Shown: positions 2,858 through 41,319 of the stretch, piece after piece
Layout: each line of letters begins with the position of its first letter
Position numbering within the stretch: position 1 is the first letter of the stretch
Source of the DNA: Phycisphaeraceae bacterium
GTDB lineage: Bacteria > Planctomycetota > Phycisphaerae > Phycisphaerales > Zrk34
NCBI GenBank assembly: GCA_028282685.1
Contig: JANQHK010000150.1
Location: 1-44,557 of the forward strand
Length of the DNA: 44,557 nucleotides
Reading direction: 5' to 3'
Position numbers and translations under genes: made by a program
Notes under the pieces: model-generated
Told to the model about the DNA's origin: nothing
The model's input: the letters and a program-made list of their open reading frames with translations, nothing else
The model's database searches: none

Positions 2858-5566
2858 ATGCCCAGTATCAGTTACGACGGACAATCGTTCATCGCCGACG
2901 GCCGACGGCTCTGGCCGATCGGCGGCGTCATGGATTACGCGCGCATTCCACATGAATTATGGCGCGATCGATTGAGCGCGATGCGGCAGGCCGGGCTGAA
3001 TACCCTCTGCACACACGTCTTCTGGAGCTACCACGAGCCGCAACCCGGCACATTCCGATTCGAGGGGCGGGCCGACCTGCGGCGCTTCGTCGAACTGGCC
3101 GCGGAACAACAGCTGTGGGTCATCCTGCGCCCCGGGCCGTATGTCGGGGCGGGATGGGATTTCGGTGGTTTGCCCCCGTGGTTGCTCGAACGGCAGGACA
3201 TGAAACTACGCCAGGGTGATCCGGCGTATCTTCAGGCCGCGGCCGGATACCTGAATGCGGTGATGAAGCAGGTGCAGGATTTCCAGGCGACGCGCGGCGG
3301 GCCGATCCTCGCCGTGCAGAATGAGCACCACTGGTTCTGCCACAACGATGAGCAGGCCGACAGCTACCTCAATCAGATCACACGCTATCTGCGTGAAGCC
3401 GGCTGCCGCGTGCCAATTTTCAATACCAACAACCTCTGGCAGCCCGTCGACGGGACACTCGATGCGTGGTCCGGCGGGGAAGAACCGCTGACGATCAGCC
3501 GGCAACTCGGCGTGGTGCATCCCAATGCGCCGCGTCTGCTGACCGATCTGCCGATCACTCGGGCGACGCATTGGGGCAGGCACGCCCCCGAGCCGCTCAC
3601 ACCCGGGCAGGCGATGCGCCGGCTGTGCCAAGCCACCGCAGGCGGTGCGTCGATCATCTTTCAGCCATTCCACGGCGGAACCAACTTCGGTTTCGACGCC
3701 GGCTGCGAAAGCGACGATACCGCCCTGACTACCGCGCACCTGCCCGATGCGCCGCTCGGCCAGGCCGGACAGCGCAGCGAAGTGTACGATGCGATCAAGC
3801 GTTTTGCCGTCTTTCTGTCTCGTCATCCCCGGCTGTTATCCAGTCTGCAGGTGGTGGATCAACACACCATTGCCGACACGGGCGTCAGCGTGGTGCAACT
3901 CAACAGCCCTCACGGCAAACTCGTGATCGTGCTGAAAAGCGACCAATGCAAACCGCGCAGCACCAAACTGCTCACTCCCGACGGGCGGTCACTGACTGTT
4001 CACTTCGGACACGACCTGGCCGCGTGGACCGTCCTCGATGCCTCTCTTGACGGGCTGGCCACACTCGACCGGACCAACCTGCGCCCGTGGGCATTTCTCG
4101 ACCGGCGCTTGCTCGTCCTGTTCGGCCCGGCGCGCACCGAAGCAACGGTCTGCATCGACGGCGCCACGCTGAGCGAAACCGTCCCCGCCGGAATCAAACC
4201 GTTAATCGTCCAACACCGGGAACTGACGGTCTGCATCTGCAACGAATCCCAGATCGACTCGGCTTACATCCGCGAGGAACGGTTGTACCTGGGCATCAAT
4301 GGTTTCGATGCCGAGGGCAATCCGCTGCGGCGCGGCAATGCGGCGTCGTATCCGGTGATTGAACCCGACGGGACCATCCGGCGCGAGCGTTTCAGCGGCG
4401 CCGCGTCCAAGCCCACCGCACCGCGTCTGGGGAAATGGCGCGCCGCGACGCGTGAAACTTACGTGAATGGCTCGGCCTTGCGCTTTGCCGCCATCGCCGG
4501 GCCGCGAGCGCTCGAGCAATGCGCCACCGATTTCGGTTACGGCTGGTACCGATTGCGCCTGCAAAGCAGCGCGGCAAAAAAAGTCAACCTCATGGCTCCC
4601 CTTGCCTCCGATCGTCTGCACCTTTACCAGCAGGGCAAACTGCAATCCGTGCTGGGATTCGGGCCCAGCGCCACCTCGCCGAATCAACCGCTGCCGATCC
4701 AGCTCCAGGCCGGGCAGACCGACCTGGTCGTTCTGGCCGACAACCTCGGCCGACTTCAGCACGGCAACCGGCTCGATCAGCGCAAGGGCCTGTTTGGTCA
4801 CCTGTATCATGTCAAGACCGTCCGTCTGCGGCGCGCCGAAGCGAAAACGGAACCGACTCCCGATGCGTTTGCTCTCAGCGGCTTCATCGAGGGCCTGCGC
4901 CGGGGGGACACCACACCGCGTCCGCATTACACCTGGACCATCGAACACCGCCGTCGGACGCCGTTGATTCTGACGTTGGCGGGCGAACGGCCGGCGGCTT
5001 TGGTCCTGCTCAACGAGAAGCCGATCGCGCTGGACGCCACGTCGGGCGTGAGCTTGCGGCTGGTGATCGAGCCCGATCAACTGAAGCGCGGCAAGAACCG
5101 CATTACGATGGCCTCGCTGGCCGATCCGCCCGCGCGTTACAATCCGAACAAGGTCGCTGCCCTTTACGAAGCCGTCGACACCCTGACGAATAAAGCCGGC
5201 TGGGCCTTTGCGCGATGGCAGATGCCCGATGAACACGAGTATGACGAGCTTCCGGCGCGCTCGCCCGCCGTGCCGACGTGGTTCGCCGCATCGTTCAGCA
5301 TCAGGAACACCGAGGCGCCGCTGTTCCTGGAACTGCACGGTGTGAGCAAGGGACAAGTCTACCTGAACGGATACAATGTCGGACGGTATTTCGTGGCCAC
5401 GGCAACGGGCAAGCACGTCCCGCCCCACCGCCGCGTTTACCTGCCCGAGCCCTGGCTGAACGCCGAGGGCGAAAACGAACTGATCCTCTTCGACGAGCAT
5501 GGCAAGACGCCGGACAAGTGCAAGCTGGTGTACGGGCGCGGAGAACCAAAGCGGAGTTCCCCATGA
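2858..5566 (+). CDS. GH35 beta-galactosidase-like protein with altered catalytic positions
   Basis: 902 residues, no signal peptide, so probably cytosolic. Residues 1-310 follow the glycoside hydrolase family 35 barrel: GLNTLCTHVFWSYHEPQPG, LRPGPYVGAGWDFGGLPPWL, GGPILAVQ and a THWG anchor at 237-240. The C-terminal part (about 800-900) has the family's jelly-roll signature GVSKGQVYLNGYNVGRYF and YLPEPWL. The catalytic positions differ: the nucleophile normally written TEF..GW..HWG is Asp230 here (TDLPITRATHWG), and the acid/base motif QxENEYG is QNEHHW at 154-159. It may be inactive, or use another chemistry. Start ATG 2858 follows the weak site AAGAGA, 120 bp after the previous gene; the stop overlaps hldD by four bases. 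Seen: residues. Known: GH35 mechanism. Inferred: altered activity. Confidence 0.82.
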   Translation: MPSISYDGQSFIADGRRLWPIGGVMDYARIPHELWRDRLSAMRQAGLNTLCTHVFWSYHEPQPGTFRFEGRADLRRFVELAAEQQLWVILRPGPYVGAGWDFGGLPPWLLERQDMKLRQGDPAYLQAAAGYLNAVMKQVQDFQATRGGPILAVQNEHHWFCHNDEQADSYLNQITRYLREAGCRVPIFNTNNLWQPVDGTLDAWSGGEEPLTISRQLGVVHPNAPRLLTDLPITRATHWGRHAPEPLTPGQAMRRLCQATAGGASIIFQPFHGGTNFGFDAGCESDDTALTTAHLPDAPLGQAGQRSEVYDAIKRFAVFLSRHPRLLSSLQVVDQHTIADTGVSVVQLNSPHGKLVIVLKSDQCKPRSTKLLTPDGRSLTVHFGHDLAAWTVLDASLDGLATLDRTNLRPWAFLDRRLLVLFGPARTEATVCIDGATLSETVPAGIKPLIVQHRELTVCICNESQIDSAYIREERLYLGINGFDAEGNPLRRGNAASYPVIEPDGTIRRERFSGAASKPTAPRLGKWRAATRETYVNGSALRFAAIAGPRALEQCATDFGYGWYRLRLQSSAAKKVNLMAPLASDRLHLYQQGKLQSVLGFGPSATSPNQPLPIQLQAGQTDLVVLADNLGRLQHGNRLDQRKGLFGHLYHVKTVRLRRAEAKTEPTPDAFALSGFIEGLRRGDTTPRPHYTWTIEHRRRTPLILTLAGERPAALVLLNEKPIALDATSGVSLRLVIEPDQLKRGKNRITMASLADPPARYNPNKVAALYEAVDTLTNKAGWAFARWQMPDEHEYDELPARSPAVPTWFAASFSIRNTEAPLFLELHGVSKGQVYLNGYNVGRYFVATATGKHVPPHRRVYLPEPWLNAEGENELILFDEHGKTPDKCKLVYGRGEPKRSSP

Positions 5567-36896: not shown

Positions 36897-38693
36897 TCAC
36901 TTGCGCCCGCGGCTGGGGTCGGCATCGCTGAACTTCATTTCGTGCAGCGCCGCCCCGGCCGGCACCATCGGGTACACGTGCTCGTGCTTCTCGACCATGC
37001 ATTCCAACACGACCGGTCCTTCGTCATACTCGAGGAACTCGGCCATCTTGCCCGGCAGTTCCGCACTGCTGACGCAGCGCAGCCCCTTGCAGTTCAACGC
37101 CTCGGACAACTTCACGAAGTCCGGGTTGTGCATTTCCGTATGGCTGTACCGCTTTTTGTAGAACAGGTCCTGCCACTGCTTGACCATGCCCTGGAAGTCG
37201 TTGTTGAGCACCAGGTGCTTGGCCTTGATGTTGTACTGGGCGGCGGTGGCCAGTTCCATGGCGGTCATGCAGAACGAGCCGTCGCCGTCGATGTTGACGA
37301 CCGTCTTGTCCGGCGCGCCGAGCTTGGCGCCGTGCGCCGAAGGCACGCCGAAGCCCATCGTGCCCAAACCGCCGCTGGTGATCCACTGGCGCGGATAGCG
37401 GAACCGGTAAAATTGCGCCGCCCACATCTGATGCTGGCCGACCCCGGTGGTGATGATCGCTTCGCCGCGCGTCTGCTTGTCCAGTTCCTCGATGACCTGC
37501 TGCGGCTTGAGGTGATAGGGACGATCGTCCGGCGCATAGCAGAACGGATGCCGCTGTTTCCAGTCGTTGATGACGGTGAGCCAGTCTTCGCGCGGTCGGT
37601 GCTCGATCATCGGCAGCAGCAATTCGAGGTTCTTGCGTGCATCGCCCTGCACGCCGAGCGTCACCGGGATCGACTTGCCGATGTTCTCCGGGGCGATATC
37701 GAAATGGATGATGCCGCCGCGGCCGTCGCGCTCGGCCCGTCGCGCTTCGGGGGCGAAGTCGGGGATGTGGCCGGTCACGCGGTCGTCGAACCGCGCGCCG
37801 ACGGAGACGATCAGATCCGCGGCCTGCATGGCGTAGTTGGCATACGCCGAGCCGTGCATCCCCAACATGTGCAGCGCAAGCGGTGAAAACTCGTCGAACG
37901 CGCCCAAACCCTGCAAGGTGGTCGTCACGGGGATATTGCCCTTCTCGCAGACCTGCCTCAACACCTCCGCCGCATCGGAAAGGATCGCGCCGTGGCCGAC
38001 GTAGAACAGCGGGCGCTCGGCGCAGTTGATCATCTCGGCCGCACGTTCGATCTCATGGCTGGCGCCCAATTCGCGCGCGTGGTAACCGGGCAGATGTCGT
38101 TCGGCCGCCACCGCTTCGCGCAGCGTCGCCGCCGTCACGTCCTTCGGCAGATCGACCAGCACCGGGCCCGGCCGACCCGTCATGGCGATGTGGAACGCCT
38201 CCTTGATCCGCCGCGGCAGGTCGCGCACGTCTTTCACCAGCACGTTCCACTTCGTGCACGGGCGCGTGATGCCCGTTACGTCGGCTTCCTGGAACGCATC
38301 GGAACCGATGGCGAACGTGGCCACCTGGCCGCTGAACACGATGATCGGCACGCCGTCCATCAGCGCATCCTGGAGCGGGGTGACGGTGTTGGTCGCCCCC
38401 GGTCCGCTGGTCACCAGCACCACGCCGGGCTTGCCGGTCACGCGGGCATAGCCCTCGGCCATGTGGCCGGCGCCCTGTTCGTGGCGCGTGAGGACGAAAT
38501 CGAAATGATCGGATTCGTAGATGGCATCGAAGACCGGCAGGATCGCGCCGCCGGGGTAACCGAATATGTGCTTGACGCCCTGCTCGCGCATGATTTCGTG
38601 GAAGATCTGCGCGCCGGTCATACCGATGTACTGATCGGTCTTCGGGACGTCGGCGTGGCTATCGATGTCGGTGGTCAGCGTGGGGCGAGGCAT
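36897..38693 (-). CDS. ilvB: Acetolactate synthase large subunit
   Basis: 598 residues. It makes acetolactate or acetohydroxybutyrate for valine, leucine and isoleucine, using thiamin diphosphate, FAD and Mg2+. Seen: FGYPGGAILPVFDAIY, RHEQGAGHMAEGYAR with the cofactor-activating Glu72, VTSGPGATN, VGARFDDRVTGHIPDFAP, the thiamin-binding GDGSFCMTAMELATA and the metal ligand region VLNNDFQGM. ATG 38693 has AAGGAT eight bases upstream. The regulatory subunit gene ilvN is not adjacent on either side, which is unusual because bacterial ilvB and ilvN generally form an operon. Confidence 0.96.
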   Translation of the reverse strand: MPRPTLTTDIDSHADVPKTDQYIGMTGAQIFHEIMREQGVKHIFGYPGGAILPVFDAIYESDHFDFVLTRHEQGAGHMAEGYARVTGKPGVVLVTSGPGATNTVTPLQDALMDGVPIIVFSGQVATFAIGSDAFQEADVTGITRPCTKWNVLVKDVRDLPRRIKEAFHIAMTGRPGPVLVDLPKDVTAATLREAVAAERHLPGYHARELGASHEIERAAEMINCAERPLFYVGHGAILSDAAEVLRQVCEKGNIPVTTTLQGLGAFDEFSPLALHMLGMHGSAYANYAMQAADLIVSVGARFDDRVTGHIPDFAPEARRAERDGRGGIIHFDIAPENIGKSIPVTLGVQGDARKNLELLLPMIEHRPREDWLTVINDWKQRHPFCYAPDDRPYHLKPQQVIEELDKQTRGEAIITTGVGQHQMWAAQFYRFRYPRQWITSGGLGTMGFGVPSAHGAKLGAPDKTVVNIDGDGSFCMTAMELATAAQYNIKAKHLVLNNDFQGMVKQWQDLFYKKRYSHTEMHNPDFVKLSEALNCKGLRCVSSAELPGKMAEFLEYDEGPVVLECMVEKHEHVYPMVPAGAALHEMKFSDADPSRGRK

Positions 38694-39211
38694 GGTCAGG
38701 TATCCTTATTCATTATCCGCACGAAAGGGGAACAGCCGTGGTATCTGTAACATATTGATCGTAATGGGAGAAACGGAACCGGGATGGGCGAGTCGTAGGC
38801 CGAACAGGTCAGGCAACGACCCGCACGGGTACAGCAACCGGTACGACCCGCGGTGACGGGCGTAGAAACAGGGCCAGAATCAGGTTGCATATCCGTTCCA
38901 TAACGGCAGGTAGTGTATCGGTAATTTTGATTTTGTCCAGTGAAAATTGTGTCAACGGTGAAAACACAACCGAAAACAGCCCGGCCGCCAACTCTCGCGG
39001 CAACCGGGCGCAGGGATGAATCCACAGACAGAAAATTCCACCTTGGGGACCGATAAACCAACGCCCGGGCGAGTCAATTATTGCCCCACGCCTGTATCCT
39101 GCTGTGGCAAGGAACTTTCTGGTATGCTCATGGCGGTTTGCTGAGCATCGAGAATCGGTCTTGCCGATGCAATAAACGGGATCGGTAAGCCGTTCTACGG
39201 ACGGAAAATGC
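38694..39211. other. Divergent gap between ilvB and the ECF sigma gene
   Basis: 518 bp. Two overlapping minus-strand frames (38809-39213 and 38696-39061) have implausible compositions and no ribosome site. The region should hold both promoters; a TATGTT near 38750 (minus) is a possible -10 box for ilvB. Short inverted repeats (for example cgggt/acccg near 38824-38852) occur but no clear attenuator or T-box is seen. Confidence 0.5.
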
Positions 39212-39775
39212 ATGGATCGACCGCTCGATGCAGTCCTGAAAGAAGCGGCCCGGGGCCAACCCCAGGCCTGGCGCCAACTGACCGAGGCCTACACCGGGCG
39301 GGTCTGGGCGATGATCTATCGGCAATGCCGCGATGCCGAGCTGGCCGAGGAGATCACCCAGGACACGTTCGTGCGAATCGTCGACAAGTTGAGCGATTAC
39401 GCCGAACGTGGGCAATTCGAGTCCTGGCTCTTTCGCATTGCACTGAATCGGTTGCGGGACGAGATGCGGCGGCGCAAGCGGCAGGCCACGCCGGTCGACT
39501 GGCACCAGACGCCGCCCGAAGCGCTGGGCTACAATCCGGATCAGGACGGACCCGCCCAGCACCTGCAACAGGCCGAACGCCACGAACAACTGCGCCAGGC
39601 GTTCGACCGGTTGCCCGAGGCCGATCGCGTCGTGCTGGGGCTGAGGTTCAACGGCGACCTGAGTTTTCAACAGATCGCCGACACGCTCGAGCAGCCGCTG
39701 GGCACCGTGCTGGCGCGAAGCCACCGGGCCCTGAAAAAACTGAAAGGCATGCTCGAGGAGCATGAGAATGACTGA
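39212..39775 (+). CDS. ECF-family RNA polymerase sigma factor
   Basis: 187 residues. Region 2 spans about 24-92: VWAMIYRQCRDAELAEEITQ, DTFVRIVDKLSDY and FESWLFRIALNRLRDEMRRR. Region 4 spans about 130-180: LPEADRVVLGLRFNGDLSFQ then QIADTLEQPLGTVLARSHRA, the helix-turn-helix that reads the -35 box. ATG 39212 follows GGACGGA. The gene overlaps the next one, a membrane protein that is the likely anti-sigma factor, so this is a regulated sigma/anti-sigma pair of the SigE type. The target promoter is unknown. Confidence 0.93.
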   Translation: MDRPLDAVLKEAARGQPQAWRQLTEAYTGRVWAMIYRQCRDAELAEEITQDTFVRIVDKLSDYAERGQFESWLFRIALNRLRDEMRRRKRQATPVDWHQTPPEALGYNPDQDGPAQHLQQAERHEQLRQAFDRLPEADRVVLGLRFNGDLSFQQIADTLEQPLGTVLARSHRALKKLKGMLEEHEND

Positions 39776-40364
39776 ACGAACCGAACAATTCGAGCACGAC
39801 CCGGCCCTGGAGGCGATCGAGCGCGAACTGGCCGAAGCGCTGGCCGCGCCCGTGCCGACCGATCTGGCCGACCGCGTCTACCGGGCCACGGTGGACGGTC
39901 TGCCGACGGGGATCGAGCCGCATTTGTCCGACGCCCTGGCCGCCGAGCCCCCGGCCGACCTGTCGCAGCGTGTTTATGCCGCCACGGTGGATCGGCTGCA
40001 CGCAACCGAAGCGCCGGCGCCGGTCGTTGCGAAGATCGGCCCGTCCCGTTGGACGCGCTGGGTCGCCGCCGCGGTGATCGTCCTCAGCGTCAGCGGTTCG
40101 ATCTGGATGGCCAAGGGGCTGGACACCACCAACGCCCAGGCCCACGCCACCAGCTTATTGACCCAGGCCGACTGGGACACCATCGATCTGGCCCTGACAG
40201 GCGAGCCCGGCGAACTTGAAGCGGAACTGGACGCCTTGTCGAATGAACTGGAAGAGTTGCTGGTCTCGCTGAACGAAGAGCCGACCGGCGCTTCCGACTT
40301 GTGGTCCGATGAACTGTACGGCGACGATCTCGATGCACTGGAAAACCGGGTGCGCCAGTTCTGA
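39768..40364 (+). CDS. Membrane anti-sigma factor candidate with an internal duplication
   Basis: 198 residues from ATG 39768, which has GAGGAG seven bases upstream; ATG 39762 is too close to it. The cytoplasmic part holds two copies of a segment of about 26 residues: ALAAPVPTDLADRVYRATVD (about 24-43) and ALAAEPPADLSQRVYAATVD (about 56-75). A membrane helix follows (about 98-115), then an acidic extracytoplasmic domain rich in Glu and Leu. There is no HxxxCxxC zinc motif. Position after, and overlap with, the sigma gene suggest an anti-sigma factor; homology was not recognised. Confidence 0.75.
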   Translation: MTERTEQFEHDPALEAIERELAEALAAPVPTDLADRVYRATVDGLPTGIEPHLSDALAAEPPADLSQRVYAATVDRLHATEAPAPVVAKIGPSRWTRWVAAAVIVLSVSGSIWMAKGLDTTNAQAHATSLLTQADWDTIDLALTGEPGELEAELDALSNELEELLVSLNEEPTGASDLWSDELYGDDLDALENRVRQF

Positions 40365-40395
40365 GCCCCATCGCATCGATGTGGAGAATCGGAGC

Positions 40396-41319
40396 ATGCC
40401 CCGCCCCGTTCACTTGTTAACACTGCTTGCTCTGCTGACGCTGCTGGTGCCGGGCAGCGCGGCTGTTGCGCAGGACGATCCGCCCAACTACGACACACCG
40501 CCGGGCGGTGAAATCACGCCCCCGCCTCCACCCACGCCAGGGATGGAAGCGGATCGTGGCGACGAGCGACCTTCCCGGAGGGACCGCGGCATGCGGCCCC
40601 GCCGATCGGACGGGCCCGACTTCGATCGCCCCGGTTCCGACCGTCCGCCCCGTCGCCCCGCGCCCGATCGTGACTTCCGCCGACCGGGCTCCGACGGCCC
40701 GGGCAGGGGCGAACCCCGCAAACCGCGCAAACCCCTGACCGACGAACAGACCGAGGAACTGTTCGGCATTCTCCAGCAAATCAATCCCCGCTTCGCCGAG
40801 GGCCTGGCCAAGGTGCGCAAAATCAGGCCCGAGCGCTTCCGCCAGGGCTTGCAGCGTATCGCGCCGCGCCTCGAACACCTGGTGCAATTGAAAGATGACG
40901 ATCCGGAACTGTTCCAACTGGAAATTGAAAATCGTCAATTGAAGTTCAAGTCGTTTCGCCTCAGCCAGGCCATTCGCAAAGCCCGCACCGAAAACACCGA
41001 CCCGGCAAAAATCGAGGCCATGCAGAACCAGTTGCGCGACATGCTGGACAAGCATTTCGATGTCCGTCAGAAAATCCTCGAACGCGAATTGAAACACATG
41101 GCCAAACGCATCGAGAAACTCAAGGGGCAATTGCGGCAGCGCCAGGAAAACCGCAAGCAACTCATCGACCAGTACATGCGGAAACTCATGACCGCCGAGC
41201 GCATGAACGACCGTGAACGCGACCCCGATCGCAAGCGGGAGCGTAATCCCGATCGCAAGCCGGACTTCGACCGCAGGCGCGATCGAGAAGACGATCGCCG
41301 ACGCGATCCCAAGCCGTAA
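40396..41319 (+). CDS. Exported Arg/Asp-rich coiled-coil protein
   Basis: 307 residues. A signal peptide (LLTLLALLTLLVPGSAAVAQ) ends near residue 26. Residues 30-115 are a low-complexity Pro/Arg/Asp/Gly region with repeats like RPGSDRPPRRPAPDRDFRRP. From LTDEQTEELFGILQQ on (about 115-275) the protein is a long charged helical coiled coil, and the last 35 residues repeat DRxRxPDRK-like units. The LTDEQ start of the helical part recalls periplasmic sensors and chaperones of the Spy/CpxP/ZraP kind, but this is only a resemblance. It follows the sigma/anti-sigma pair after 31 bp and could be its periplasmic input or main target. Confidence 0.75.
   Translation: MPRPVHLLTLLALLTLLVPGSAAVAQDDPPNYDTPPGGEITPPPPPTPGMEADRGDERPSRRDRGMRPRRSDGPDFDRPGSDRPPRRPAPDRDFRRPGSDGPGRGEPRKPRKPLTDEQTEELFGILQQINPRFAEGLAKVRKIRPERFRQGLQRIAPRLEHLVQLKDDDPELFQLEIENRQLKFKSFRLSQAIRKARTENTDPAKIEAMQNQLRDMLDKHFDVRQKILERELKHMAKRIEKLKGQLRQRQENRKQLIDQYMRKLMTAERMNDRERDPDRKRERNPDRKPDFDRRRDREDDRRRDPKP

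Follow-up and report, generated by a model that had tools for sequence, protein, structure and literature searches.

The three consecutive genes examined here, for an ECF sigma factor, a single-pass membrane protein and an exported helical protein, probably encode an autoregulated envelope-stress circuit that drives Spy-type chaperones. They lie in a stretch of 44,557 nucleotides (the window) from a 2.9 Mb draft genome, labelled G000. What is new is a promoter-like element, GCAAT-N16/17-CGTT, that stands both before the sigma gene and before genes for Spy-type chaperones. Planctomycetota have many ECF sigma factors and unusual envelopes, but to our knowledge the signal, the promoter or the targets are known for few of the ECF circuits in this phylum. 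For one such circuit there is now a promoter-like element, a set of predicted chaperone targets and an exported partner that is undescribed and widely conserved.

Proteins of the locus

The three open reading frames were first picked out in an earlier note on this DNA, whose coordinates for them proved exact. The genes and the features within them are as follows.

39212..39775, + strand: ECF sigma factor gene, 187 aa, with Pfam regions 2 and 4
39762..40364, + strand: predicted zinc-free anti-sigma gene, 200 aa, single-pass membrane protein; zf-HC2 proteins hold this position in some other loci
39816..39902, + strand: motif copy 1, anti-sigma residues 19-47
39912..39998, + strand: motif copy 2, anti-sigma residues 51-79
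40062..40118, + strand: predicted transmembrane segment, anti-sigma residues 101-119 (Kyte-Doolittle, 19 residues)
40396..41319, + strand: exported helical protein gene, 307 aa, undescribed family
40396..40470, + strand: predicted signal peptide, 25 aa, ending AVA, by hydrophobicity and sequence
40711..41235, + strand: conserved helical core, the basis of family alignment A1

In window coordinates the sigma gene and the middle gene overlap by 14 nt. For the exported-protein gene we prefer the ATG at 40396 as start, the mechanically called reading frame being longer, from 40309.

The earlier assignment of the first gene to the sigma factors is borne out by Pfam, which matches Sigma70_r2 (53.1 bits, residues 24-90) and Sigma70_r4 (40.8 bits, residues 130-178) above their cut-offs and gives no match to sigma region 3; regions 2 and 4 lying close together without region 3 is the arrangement by which ECF factors are recognized. 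The protein scores 99.5 bits against the NCBIfam superfamily model TIGR02937 (cut-off 42.9), and the other 24 of the best 25 of 98 NCBIfam models, equivalog models included, fall below their cut-offs. Its closest solved structures are of the SigE and SigW types, with CnrH lower in the list, and the G000 genome as a whole has 11 sigma-70 region 2 matches, 10 of them above cut-off. One scan turned up a single named relative of the sigma factor, from the Phycisphaerales MAG Baikal-deep-G177 (45% identical), whose locus L030 holds the same three genes in the same order as the window. The order to which we assign the genomes compared below, Phycisphaerales, is judged by this one named relative.

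The middle protein has one strongly hydrophobic segment, at residues 101-119. The cytoplasmic part before it contains no cysteine, and Pfam gives no zf-HC2 match (the HxxxCxxC zinc motif), in line with the earlier description of an anti-sigma candidate devoid of a zinc motif. No Pfam family exceeds its cut-off on this protein, and the NCBIfam model NF052375, 'anti-sigma factor', reaches 30.6 bits (E 3.2e-7) against a cut-off of 100, a weak similarity only; the predicted structural model is unusable (pLDDT 42.8). A missing zinc motif is by itself not rare, since passages of PMC7406223 put the share of class I anti-sigma domains without one at about 44%. In the tail, residues 19-47 and 51-79 are identical at 18 of 29 positions with a local score of 81, compared with a maximum of 47 in 5000 shuffles (0/5000 reach 81) and with 0/2000 when the whole tail is shuffled, so that the duplicated cytoplasmic motif of 26 residues seen earlier stands as the core of a 29-residue stretch. 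Its consensus is Leu-rich, L...L..AL....P..L..RI..AT. A motif model was built from the 49 middle proteins of the order, counting the window's, and run on these same proteins at a domain E of 0.01; it finds a single copy in 20 of them, two copies in 9, three copies in 1 and no copy in 19. The motif is thus a feature common to many of these middle proteins, the window's having two copies. Proteins with one, two or three copies form a natural series for studying a putative sigma-holding motif. A further pattern, V-V/I-A/G-R/K-I, occurs in 18 of the 49 proteins, the shuffled mean being 0.3.

The third protein was described at the outset as an exported, Arg/Asp-rich coiled coil, and this description is upheld by an N-terminal hydrophobic stretch of signal-peptide type, by its composition (Arg, Asp, Glu and Lys together make up 41%, and the tails are rich in Arg, Asp and Pro) and by an AlphaFold model of the core, built from two sequences, that is all-helical (pLDDT 87.9, pTM 0.68), with three helices of 14, 13 and 24 residues followed by helices of 29 and 73. 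Alignment A1, a profile of 54 cores, has no invariant column, and a cysteine after the signal peptide is absent in most members. Pfam searches of the 54 cores and of 54 full-length proteins, and an NCBIfam search of the 54 full-length proteins, gave no family matching more than 3 members among the first 25 families listed by member number. Four members of the window's family (L092, L093, L112, L121) carry two cores in one protein, and some genomes have two tandem genes. These four loci also have 2-3 copies of the anti-sigma motif, as do one-core members, the window among them.

The Spy/CpxP or LTXXQ family (PF07813) consists of exported, helical proteins with a cradle-shaped fold that are tied to envelope stress, and a faint likeness of the third protein to it had been suggested. 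That likeness rests on an LTDEQ string and did not hold up. PF07813 gives no match up to E 1 in the window protein, and among its relatives it is not in the best 25 of 84 families for the 54 cores or of 63 for the 54 full-length proteins, which leaves at most 1 member per set. In profile comparisons of A1 with Spy, CpxP, ZraP, CnrX and PF13801-type proteins of the same genomes, nothing rose above reversed controls; the best hit to a Spy/CpxP/ZraP/CnrX candidate, at 23% probability (L224, a predicted target), lies below the 39.6% of A1 against its own reversal, and we regard it as noise. A PDB sequence search with the third-protein profile returned designed helical, ribosomal and unrelated coiled-coil proteins (best E 0.0075). 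Fold searches with the core model gave only E values of 0.96 or more in Foldseek and Z scores up to 10.9 in VIA-align, mostly over the hairpin of residues 67-140, a level common for long helices according to that program's notes.

Conservation of the trio

The third-protein family is present in 59 of 61 genomes of the order. A single-sequence search hit 55 of the 61, 53 of them correctly, the hits L132 (G009) and L133 (G018) being false and excluded from the counts; a profile search then added G009, G014, G018, G022, G038 and G059, the true places in G009 and G018 being L216 and L217. In 57 of the 59 order loci the third gene has a sigma gene upstream in the same orientation, and the two exceptions (L102, L114) begin at a contig start. 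The three genes, whose co-occurrence the earlier note had proposed to check, are found together throughout the order. An ORF with a hydrophobic segment lies between the sigma gene and the third gene in 49 of 53 order loci examined, window included, and its first start codon overlaps the sigma stop by 4 nt in 17 of 47.

The two genomes of the order in which the third family was not found are unlike each other. G042 seems to be missing the sigma gene too, its best sigma match being at E 8e-21. G057 (L377) has both the sigma gene, preceded by the element, and the anti-sigma gene, motif included, but lacks the third gene, and a different membrane protein follows; because this genome keeps the sigma gene, the element and the anti-sigma gene in the absence of the third gene, the third protein is not indispensable. 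Such a case, the first two genes without the third, had been named beforehand as counting against the trio. It was found this once.

Judged by sequence, the trio is kept across the order and found elsewhere in the Planctomycetota phylum. The A1 profile matched 68 of 294 genomes, 15 of the order and 53 outside it, and of the latter 51 loci were taken, leaving out the partial matches in G294 and G322 (E 3e-4 and 6e-4); a first look concerned mostly 10 candidates. Here, too, a sigma gene mostly precedes the third gene in the same orientation, in 45 of the 51 loci, at a distance of 2.6 kb in one of them. Of the six loci that lack it, L188, L199 and L204 start less than 1.4 kb from a contig start, unlike L181, L193 and L219.

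The middle gene of these more distant loci is informative about that of the window. Ten were scanned, chosen by eye as zinc-finger-like, kinase-like or typical: zf-HC2 exceeds its cut-off in four (L174, L175, L182, L187), a protein kinase domain is found in three (L187, L197, L211), L187 having both, and nothing passes a cut-off in the other four (L184, L185, L190, L192). Since a zf-HC2 or Ser/Thr kinase protein can occupy the same position outside the order, the window's middle gene is likely an anti-sigma factor, the zinc-finger anti-sigma in that position elsewhere being good evidence for the assignment, not proof. The zf-HC2 class I anti-sigmas share the middle position in some outside-order trios, and the window protein differs from them in having no zinc ligands and a tail made of the repeated motif.

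The three kinase-bearing middle genes (L187:1396-3177, L197:1626-3176 and L211:1595-3199) encode membrane proteins with a Ser/Thr kinase domain, accompanied in L187 by zf-HC2. Passages of PMC2754498 report a response to heat, cold and salt for three ECF genes of Rhodopirellula baltica, one of which, RB138, responds together with the Ser/Thr kinase gene RB140.

A promoter-like element and its predicted targets

Three 7-mers, GGCAATA, TGCAATA and GCAATAA, are 14- to 18-fold enriched upstream of the sigma genes of the order, and they make up the first block of GCAAT-N16/17-CGTT. Two copies of this element lie in the window.

39169..39194, + strand: predicted ECF-type promoter for autoregulation, GCAAT-N17-CGTT, its end 17 nt upstream of the sigma start codon
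39060..39084, - strand: second, divergent copy, GCAAT-N16-CGTT, pointing to the acetolactate synthase-like gene 36897-38693, 367 nt from its start

Across the order the element lies upstream of the sigma gene in 42 of 53 loci, where the remaining sequence of these loci would lead one to expect 0.47, and its spacer is 16 in 29 of them and 17 in 13, with none at 12-15 or 18-21. Four further order loci (L216, L217, L374, L377) also have it. In the named relative, L030, the sole copy is at 4549-4573, between the sigma and anti-sigma genes. GGAAC, a common ECF -35 block, was also considered as a promoter block; it occurs once in the window, at -104, and here and there in a minority of the remaining regions, and was dropped.

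Two blocks separated by a fixed spacer of 16-17 nt constitute the layout of an ECF promoter, which, together with the window copy ending 17 nt before the sigma start, suggests that the element is read by the sigma factor of the trio. A different sigma factor or a transcription factor might instead read it and control both the trio and the Spy-type genes. In favour of this alternative, the element is absent before 11 of 53 sigma genes in the order and 43 of 45 outside it, the two that have it (L167, L175) carrying it 43-48 nt upstream of the estimated start. This alternative nonetheless seems unlikely to us, given the promoter layout and the position of the window copy, and given that the other sigma genes checked, namely 3 in G000 and 6 second sigma genes in order loci, have no element before them. 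Other ECF factors could read the same element as the trio's own.

Genes of the PF07813 family are the foremost predicted targets. A search for PF07813 (LTXXQ) in 41 genomes found matches in 24, 45 in total, of which 30 with an examined locus represent 28 distinct genes. The element stands upstream of 10 of these 28, in 10 genomes, always with a spacer of 16 and 44 to 103 nt before the likely start codon. All ten belong to families f1 and f6, where they account for 10 of 13 genes, as opposed to 0 of 15 in the other families. At spacer 16 the 30 loci contain 16 sites (13 distinct); no other spacer from 10 to 24 accounts for more than 2, and the reversed pattern does not occur. The third protein is itself not a detectable PF07813 member.

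In the G000 genome, GCAATA-N14-17-CGTT occurs 16 times and the reversed pattern 10 times, and because of this small difference most single matches in G000 mean little. One contig, C139, whose locus was picked before the element was known, has two copies before two adjacent genes for exported proteins, one of them a PF07813 Spy-type protein above cut-off and the other similar by eye with no Pfam match.

Eight genomes, selected by having a Spy gene with the element, contain 82 element sites compared with 23 reversed-pattern sites, although in G000 and G033 the sites barely exceed the control (7 vs 5 and 12 vs 11). An exported product, called by a simple hydrophobicity rule for a signal-peptide-like start, is encoded downstream of 36 of the 82 sites, as against 4 of the 23 controls (Fisher p 0.017). 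Pfam families among these 36 products (E 1e-4) are led by LTXXQ, with 6, followed by sulfatases and EF-hand proteins with 3 each; the Spy count is not independent, given how the genomes were selected. Independent support comes from the excess of sites, the excess of exported products and two recurring pairs. The first pair, L235:1619-2074 (G000) and L309:1462-1929, consists of small exported proteins behind an element in different families of the order, 31% identical (E 3e-12) and with no clear Pfam family, and these are possibly further element targets. The second, L288:702-1367 and L294:1584-2237, consists of exported proteins behind an element in two genera, 42% identical (E 2e-33), whose Pfam matches are all sub-threshold, PF13801 among them.

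The proposed circuit and related systems

Taken together, the layout of the locus and the element suggest an envelope-stress circuit that regulates its own expression and may work as follows. At rest, the sigma factor would be bound by the membrane protein, whose cytoplasmic tail would grip it with the repeated Leu-rich motif. Outside the inner membrane, the exported protein would sense how the envelope fares and pass this on to the C-terminal part of the anti-sigma factor, or buffer the envelope's state. We infer that stress would release the sigma factor, which would then bind GCAAT-N16/17-CGTT promoters and transcribe its own operon along with genes for exported proteins, foremost the Spy-type (LTXXQ) chaperones. 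Signals of this kind cross the membrane by proteolysis in RseA, and a conformational change is thought to serve in CnrYX.

The third protein is more likely a sensor or modulator than an effector, because its gene is linked to the sigma gene, although G057 shows that it can be absent; the sensor role taken by itself we put at about even chances. In the same circuit it could be an effector, a structural or chaperone-like envelope protein that is the operon's first target. Spy-type genes are predicted targets of the same element, into which set an exported helical effector would fit, G057 has the sigma and anti-sigma genes without the third protein, and some genomes carry the core twice within one protein or the gene as a tandem pair. 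Set against this, a sigma gene accompanies the third gene in 57 of 59 loci of the order and 45 of 51 outside it, a tighter link than one target among many should show, and we hold the effector role to be a real possibility, of somewhat less than even probability.

Beyond the sensor or modulator reading, and more tentatively, the trio may represent a Planctomycetota envelope-stress module with exchangeable parts, in which the exported helical sensor family and an ECF sigma factor are joined by anti-sigma factors whose sigma-holding end swaps between lineages (a repeated linear motif in 1-3 copies, a zinc finger, or a zinc finger with a Ser/Thr kinase), and in the window's family the copy number would tune how firmly the sigma factor is held.

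The layout of the trio is familiar. RpoE-RseA-RseB of E. coli likewise comprises an ECF sigma factor, a single-pass zinc-free anti-sigma factor and a periplasmic modulator encoded downstream, with an envelope-stress logic. The likeness is one of layout; among the families listed for the trio proteins no match points to RseA or RseB. The earlier note had recognized an envelope-stress layout made of unusual parts, which agrees with the linkage through order and phylum, the zf-HC2 middle genes and the element shared with Spy-type genes. Its further suggestion of a distinct type of extracytoplasmic signalling goes too far, the layout being known from RpoE-RseA-RseB and CnrYXH; what sets the trio apart is its partner family, its repeated motif and its predicted promoter. 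We found no description of the trio in the open-access literature by title or abstract opening, a scope that takes in few subscription papers and is no proof of novelty, nor in passages of PMC7406223, PMC8103513, PMC8999054 and PMC2754498.

CnrYXH, from plasmid pMOL28 of Cupriavidus metallidurans, resembles the trio in that an ECF sigma factor, a short zinc-free membrane anti-sigma factor and a periplasmic partner are encoded together. The gene order differs, being Y-X-H there and sigma, anti-sigma, partner in the window, and so do the targets, since cnrCBA beside cnrH encodes an efflux pump and the predicted targets of the window circuit are Spy-type chaperones. Passages of PMC7406223 describe CnrY as wrapping its sigma factor with two helices, of which one lies on sigma-4 and the other on sigma-2. 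By analogy, a short motif might bind a sigma factor in this manner in place of a zinc finger, the sequence of CnrY itself having no similarity to the window's middle protein in a profile search.

The shared set of three roles, and the existence in the same order of trios with a PF13801 partner (L220, L223), would also suit a metal-sensing circuit of the CnrYXH type with a diverged CnrX-like sensor as third protein. We consider this very unlikely: PF13801 (Metal_resist) has no match up to E 1 in the window's third protein and matches 1 of 54 cores, at E 0.002, CnrX gives no match to the third-protein profile, most members have no cysteine after the signal peptide, and A1 lacks any invariant column.

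The L220 (G006) and L223 (G013) loci are separate trios, consisting of a sigma factor, an anti-sigma factor and a PF13801 (CnrX-type) protein with an N-terminal hydrophobic stretch; by eye, the anti-sigma factor of L220 is zinc-finger-like.
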